Shown: positions 33,530 to 33,930 of the stretch, piece by piece
Position numbering within the stretch: the first letter of the stretch is position 1
Layout of the letters: every line of letters starts with the position of its first letter
From: Candidatus Obscuribacterales bacterium
GTDB lineage: Bacteria; Cyanobacteriota; Vampirovibrionia; Obscuribacterales; Obscuribacteraceae
Length of the DNA stretch: 64,000 nt
Assembly: GCA_020050685.1 (NCBI GenBank)
Contig: JAGVKG010000017.1
Span: 36,179-100,178 of the forward strand
Direction of reading: 5' to 3'
Translations under genes and position numbers: made by a program
The notes under the pieces: generated by a model
Databases searched by the model: none
What the model saw: only the letters and a program-made list of their open reading frames with translations
Told to the model about the DNA's origin: nothing

Positions 33530-33877
33530 TTATTTGAACACTTTTTTGTACGTGTCTTCATCGAAGCCGATTAGGAGAGTCTTGCCGCGTTTTATCGTCG
33601 GGGCTCGCAGGTTGCCGGTTGGGCCGAGCATGACGGCAAGTATTTCATCCTTGCTGGGTTTGTCTTTTTTCAGATTTAGGTGTACAGCTTTCTGGCCTTT
33701 GCTGGCGTAAATTTCATCGGCTTCTGCCGCCAACTCTAATGCTTCTTTTGCGCCCATGGATTTTGAGCGGGCATCTACTGTCGTCTTTGCTTTGAGATCA
33801 TTTCTCACAAGAAACTCTTGTGACCGGGTGCAGGTCATTCAACCCTTGCGGTGATAAATCCAATCAAATATAGCCAT
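33530..33877 (-). CDS. candidate selenoprotein: ArsC-like thioredoxin-fold protein with in-frame UGA
   Basis: The frame with an ideal ribosome site (GAGGT, 7 nt before ATG 33877) reads MAIFDWIYHRKG, then UGA (33839-33841), then MTCTRSQEFLV and 95 further residues to a stop at 33530: 115 residues if UGA is read as selenocysteine. In ArsC/Spx-like relatives the segment reads D-W-(L/I)-Y-x-R-K-(G/S)-C-x-x-C, so UGA replaces the first Cys of the redox motif, giving U-M-T-C. Downstream family features are intact: VDARSKSMG, AVHLNLKKDKPS, GPTGNLRAPTI and LLIGFDEDTY. A SECIS-like hairpin follows at 33805-33823. A thiol-disulfide or peroxide/arsenate-type reductase role is inferred. If UGA is a stop, the remaining 102-residue protein would lack its nucleophile. 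Confidence 0.75.
33805..33823 (-). promoter_or_regulatory. SECIS-like hairpin after the UGA
   Basis: On the minus-strand RNA, UCACAAGA-GUU-UCUUGUGA is a perfect 8-bp stem with a 3-nt loop starting with G. The loop begins 23 nt after the UGA. Bacterial SECIS elements sit in the coding region 16-37 nt after the UGA with a small G-containing apical loop, so position and shape fit. A weaker UGACC/GGUCA stem lies between it and the UGA. Confidence 0.6.
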
Positions 33878-33930
33878 TAGCAATACCTCATATTCAAACA
33901 CGTAGCTTGGTACTTTATCGATAGTATCAT

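Follow-up and report, generated by a model that had tools for sequence, protein, structure and literature searches.

A further member of the ArsC (seleno)protein family, with a predicted selenocysteine codon, in an uncultured relative of cyanobacteria

Background

Selenoproteins related to ArsC have been in print since 2006, and published collections describe several forms in which selenocysteine (Sec, U in motifs) stands in the redox motif. A 2006 survey (PMC1794560) reported them in Desulfotalea and Desulfuromonas; a 2008 study of ocean metagenomes (PMC2398784) distinguished UxxS and UxxC forms, the latter as 'Arsenate reductase 2' (cd03032); and the table of a 2022 review (PMC9312934) includes an Arsenate reductase-like UxxC family. 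These papers, like the others cited below, are represented here by part of their text, and comparisons with them are made by description. NCBIfam holds a model of the group, NF041106 (ArsC_rel_Se_1, 'ArsC family (seleno)protein'), whose members share UGA or Cys at one codon within a UxxC or CxxC motif; a literature search on the ArsC family, selenoproteins and NCBIfam returned nothing on this model, judged by titles. Here we analyse a 64-kb stretch of contig JAGVKG010000017.1 from a Candidatus Obscuribacterales bacterium (hereafter the window), in which a gene on the minus strand, at positions 33530 to 33877, carries an in-frame UGA at codon 13. We conclude, with a probability of about 0.96, that it encodes an NF041106-type ArsC/Spx-like protein whose codon-13 UGA is read as Sec by the host's SelA/SelB/SelC/SelD through a predicted selenocysteine insertion sequence (SECIS) hairpin. 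The gene very likely adds one more member to a selenoprotein family that already has a name, which reduces its novelty: like the proteins of the 2006 paper it is ArsC-like with (here predicted) Sec in the redox motif, like those of the 2008 paper it is of the UxxC type, and it differs from both in its host.

That host is likely an uncultured, non-photosynthetic relative of cyanobacteria of the family Obscuribacteraceae, which NCBI assigns to Candidatus Melainabacteria. In the parts of the literature on which we draw, the Sec trait was not found in Cyanobacteria in 2006 (PMC1794560), Cyanobacteria are listed as lacking Sec use in 2022 (PMC9312934), and cyanobacteria are named only for orphan SelD in PMC5029168. 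A single Sec-containing protein, PWT95605.1, appears in a Melainabacteria proteome in the corresponding part of PMC9529120, so Sec is not wholly unreported in the group. Literature searches found nothing on selenoproteins of Obscuribacter or on Vampirovibrionia and selenocysteine; Melainabacteria and selenoprotein together yielded diet or health papers only, by title, and Obscuribacterales went unnamed among the matches listed for cyanobacteria, selenocysteine, SelB and Obscuribacterales. What is mildly new is the host group, in which the literature searched hardly describes Sec use.

Results

A frame with a single UGA in its redox motif

The gene comprises the following elements:

33530..33877, minus strand: 115-residue frame of an ArsC-like (seleno)protein in which residue 13 is predicted to be Sec (matches to NF041106 and PF03960).
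33839..33841, minus strand: in-frame UGA, codon 13, predicted Sec codon and first position of UxxC (UGA/Cys exchange across loci).
33830..33832, minus strand: codon of C16, the Cys that ends the UxxC motif, invariant in a 22-row alignment and Cys in 101 of 101 motif matches.
33885..33889, minus strand: ribosome-binding-type sequence GAGGT, separated from the ATG by 7 nt, read from the sequence.
33530..33838, minus strand: truncated 102-residue frame from the ATG directly after the UGA, the database version (P0002).
33805..33823, minus strand: predicted bacterial SECIS hairpin, 8-pair stem with apical loop GUU (33815-33813), -7.8 kcal/mol, comparative pairing.

The initial annotation had drawn this frame from the ATG at 33877, behind GAGGT at a spacing of 7 nt, through one UGA at codon 13 to 33530, and had likened its product to ArsC; coordinates, motif and family all hold. 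The start codon occupies 33877-33875, the stop codon ends at 33530, the UGA is the sole in-frame stop between them, and the redox segment reads D-W-I-Y-H-R-K-G-UGA-M-T-C. With Cys at the UGA, the read-through protein scores 140.2 bits against NF041106 (cut-off 85), the match spanning positions 2-107 of 107, and 32.5 bits against Pfam PF03960 ArsC (cut-off 24); its 33.6 bits against the Spx/MgsR model TIGR01617 lie below the cut-off of 75.05. The truncated frame alone reaches 113.9 bits against NF041106. The match above cut-off means that the family is already known, and we found no feature that sets the protein apart from it. Frames with a Met codon, one UGA and then at least 90 open codons number 19 in the window, six of them with Cys or Ser near the UGA by a loose pattern; the homologue search, made for the frame 33877-33530 alone among the 19, returned a family with Cys at the UGA codon.

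Automatic annotation had been forecast to start after the UGA, and database protein P0002 (102 residues), identical to the frame, indeed begins MTC. Among the matches listed (P0002-P0121), the WxYxRxxCxxC motif is absent from 110 of 120 homologous proteins, and 40 of the 120 start with MTC or MSC, as would follow from gene calls made just downstream of a UGA (a count made on proteins only). The NCBI record P0035, from Drouetiella sp., is already named ArsC family (seleno)protein, but is given in truncated form.

Sec machinery and UGA/Cys exchange

The host assembly (4.2 Mb, 98.69% complete, 3.03% contaminated) encodes a tRNA-Sec with a UCA anticodon on contig C34 (69.7 bits, gathering threshold 47), SelA on C29 (513.6 bits, cut-off 267.9), SelD on C34 (368.9 bits, cut-off 125) and SelB at C20:3713-5581, on the contig of the window (335.2 bits, cut-off 242.25). 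The three protein frames are above cut-off and free of internal stops.

Relatives were compared in a sample of 40 genomes, the window's own plus 39 others, with thresholds of E 1e-60 for Sel proteins and 1e-7 for tRNA in the relatives. The gene is above cut-off in 22 of the 40, with UGA in 11 and Cys in 11. Among the UGA genomes, SelB (E<=1e-60), SelA and tRNA-Sec are each present in 10 of 11; neither SelA nor tRNA-Sec was detected in G019, which is 65% complete, and the eleventh genome with respect to SelB, G023, has a 780-residue frame with three separate partial SelB matches of 172, 57 and 33 bits, each below cut-off. Of the Cys genomes, four (G002, G006, G008 and G013) have no SelA, SelB or tRNA-Sec detected at these thresholds, so that relatives without the detected machinery carry the Cys form in 4 of 4 cases. 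Seven others (G003, G004, G009, G012, G014, G024 and G025; loci L024, L023, L027, L022, L028, L033 and L032) keep SelA and tRNA-Sec, and SelB is present in six Cys genomes; other selenoproteins are likely made in those seven.

To enlarge the locus set, the best 80 of 581 loci that match the motif GP[TS]GNLRAP in titled genome records were added. Across the resulting 102 loci, codon 13 is UGA in 81, Cys in 21 and any other residue in none, the codon of L036 being taken from the 40-genome comparison. Nine loci are duplicates; after their removal, the 93 distinct loci comprise 77 with UGA, from several phyla, and 16 with Cys. On a quick tree in which 54 of 90 inner branches lack resolution, the fewest Sec/Cys changes number five.

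Some record titles do not fit the kin of the gene they carry: Klebsiella pneumoniae (L058), Actinobacteria (L048) and Proteobacteria (L081). L048 and L081 have exact counterparts in L024 and L035, both from the host's family, and L058 groups with the Proteobacteria bin L091; some bins are likely misnamed.

A covarying hairpin after the UGA

The predicted SECIS element of the window, UCACAAGA-GUU-UCUUGUGA, lies 15-33 nt after the UGA. As in bacterial SECIS elements, the hairpin stands just 3' of the UGA and has a G in its apical loop, here within GUU; support for it is comparative and comes from our own hairpin scan and pair counts. In the 77 distinct UGA segments, 85.9% of stem cells are paired and 42 cells are compensatory, while the maxima over 500 column shuffles are 80.4% and 19, and versions with a slid partner give 25.2-62.0% and no more than 21. 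The 15 distinct Cys segments have 51.7% paired and nine compensatory cells, both values within what shuffling yields (up to 55.0% and 12), and a slid partner pairs more of the stem at its best (57.5%). The apical loop is GUU in 75 of 77 UGA segments versus 1 of 15 Cys segments. Mean best hairpins are -7.58 kcal/mol in 81 UGA segments, versus -3.36 in synonymous-codon shuffles, and -2.65 in 20 Cys segments, versus -1.39. Judged from these alignments, compensatory changes maintain the putative SECIS hairpin where the codon is UGA, and it has decayed where the codon is Cys.

The UGA gene of G023 (L039), the genome whose SelB is matched in pieces only, has the loop CUU rather than GUU and a weaker stem; the two are possibly a diverged SelB-SECIS pair.

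Other UGA candidates in the same genome

A second Sec candidate, L129 (G000:C27:28700-29900, UGA at 599-601), encodes a peroxidase-related AhpD/CMD protein with the segment C-F-Y-UGA (104.5 bits against TIGR01926, cut-off 81.8), and the hairpin after its UGA has a z of -2.04. Among the 120 homologues listed, the residue at this site is Trp in 63, Cys in 55 and Leu in one, with one unmatched; with either Trp or Cys there, a Sec protein and a Trp-to-stop change are both possible. A peroxiredoxin frame (L126, G000:C53:61281-61619) was rejected as a selenoprotein: its TGA falls where the reading frame slips, away from the FVCP active site, and reflects either a fault in the assembly or a disrupted gene. 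Formate dehydrogenase was also set aside, the best match being below cut-off and having no internal stop.

Discussion

The initial annotation had proposed that the organism reads this UGA as selenocysteine, and had pointed to the sel genes, to Cys or UGA at the same codon in homologues and to a bacterial SECIS hairpin as places to look. Each has turned out in its favour: tRNA-Sec, SelA, SelB and SelD are all encoded in the host genome, codon 13 is Cys or UGA in 102 of 102 loci, and a covarying hairpin follows the UGA; together they support Sec as the very probable reading. The UGA at codon 13 would be decoded as Sec by SelA, SelB, SelC and SelD of the same genome, with the predicted hairpin directing insertion. 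Sec13 may then act as the attacking selenolate, forming a selenenylsulfide with Cys16 during catalysis that a thiol reductant would reset. In that case the protein would work as a selenol redoxin, with substrates that are of disulfide type or oxidised in some other way. The predicted fold is of the thioredoxin type, places Sec13 immediately ahead of the first helix and is near Spx and ArsC-related structures; a structure search returned thioredoxin-type folds only (Spx, ArsC-related, glutaredoxin and NrdH).

Several points weigh against this reading. Sec13 is very likely, but as a prediction from genes and sequence comparison, and the function is assigned from the motif and a predicted fold for which Foldseek gives query-normalised TM-scores of only 0.52-0.58 against the ten closest chains. 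The seven Cys genomes that keep SelA and tRNA-Sec (six have SelB) mean that the machinery alone is no predictor of UGA, and the best 80 of 581 loci are a non-random sample. As to the hairpin, column shuffles ignore the relatedness of the segments; when each locus is taken by itself, no more than 40 of 81 UGA segments (and 3 of 20 Cys segments) beat all but 5% of synonymous shuffles; and the outermost stem pair is formed in only 28 of 77 UGA segments. Taken alone, the window hairpin lacks significance (z -1.19 and -1.36), and the best fold of its segment favours a shifted stem, so the SECIS case is a comparative one.

Among other explanations, the one that fares best, although we consider it unlikely, makes the protein a genuine arsenate reductase in which Sec replaces the catalytic Cys. 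It has the PF03960 match, the depositor names of some structural neighbours and the family name in the review table (PMC9312934, in part) in its favour. The protein does share its domain family with ArsC arsenate reductases, but has UxxC or CxxC and an Ala before the conserved Pro, and the solved structures that match it best by sequence are those of Spx.

In ArsC, the Arg before the conserved Pro binds arsenate. Here that residue is Ala (A92) in 22 of 22 alignment rows, and it aligns to the Arg of Spx and of the ArsC-related structure 2m46, the comparison being limited to these; arsenate reduction by this ArsC-like protein is therefore doubtful. The five nearby window genes scanned gave no arsenic-related Pfam match, ars genes elsewhere or beside the relatives not having been searched by name. 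Gene neighbourhood was dropped as a functional clue, since the largest neighbour cluster covers 12 of 101 loci, a count that includes duplicates.

A more far-reaching reading, which we rate as less probable still, would make the protein an Spx-like selenol redox switch in this non-photosynthetic sister group of the cyanobacteria, a transcription-linked stress sensor whose Sec turns to Cys when a lineage loses its sel genes. The Spx regulator of Bacillus (PDB 1z3e, 3gfk and 3ihq) has Arg before the conserved Pro, where the present protein has Ala together with its predicted Sec.

That the gene is a pseudogene, a Cys-type gene struck by a nonsense mutation or an assembly error with at most the 102-residue fragment after the UGA as product, would agree with the automatic caller, which gives exactly this fragment, and the same assembly does contain such an artefact in the TGA of its peroxiredoxin frame. 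It is nevertheless very improbable: 76 other distinct loci share the UGA, in several phyla, which makes chance, sequencing error and a private nonsense mutation untenable, conservation extends over the remainder of the frame in the 22-row alignment, and the hairpin covaries. Least credible of all is a UGA read through as Trp or generally reassigned, as in some other bacteria that use UGA as a Trp codon, given that non-UGA loci have Cys at the codon in 21 of 21 cases, that the genome has a tRNA-Sec with a UCA anticodon, and that its SelA, SelB and SelD frames contain no internal stop.

With Sec as the favoured reading of codon 13, one bacterial family holds both Sec and Cys forms of this protein, the Cys form occurring with or without detected sel genes. 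Gene calls that start after the UGA suggest a widespread annotation fault, by which selenium dependence is hidden in ordinary gene lists. The locus adds a well-supported predicted selenoprotein gene in a lineage adjoining the cyanobacteria, a group that the 2022 review, in the part cited (PMC9312934), lists as lacking Sec.
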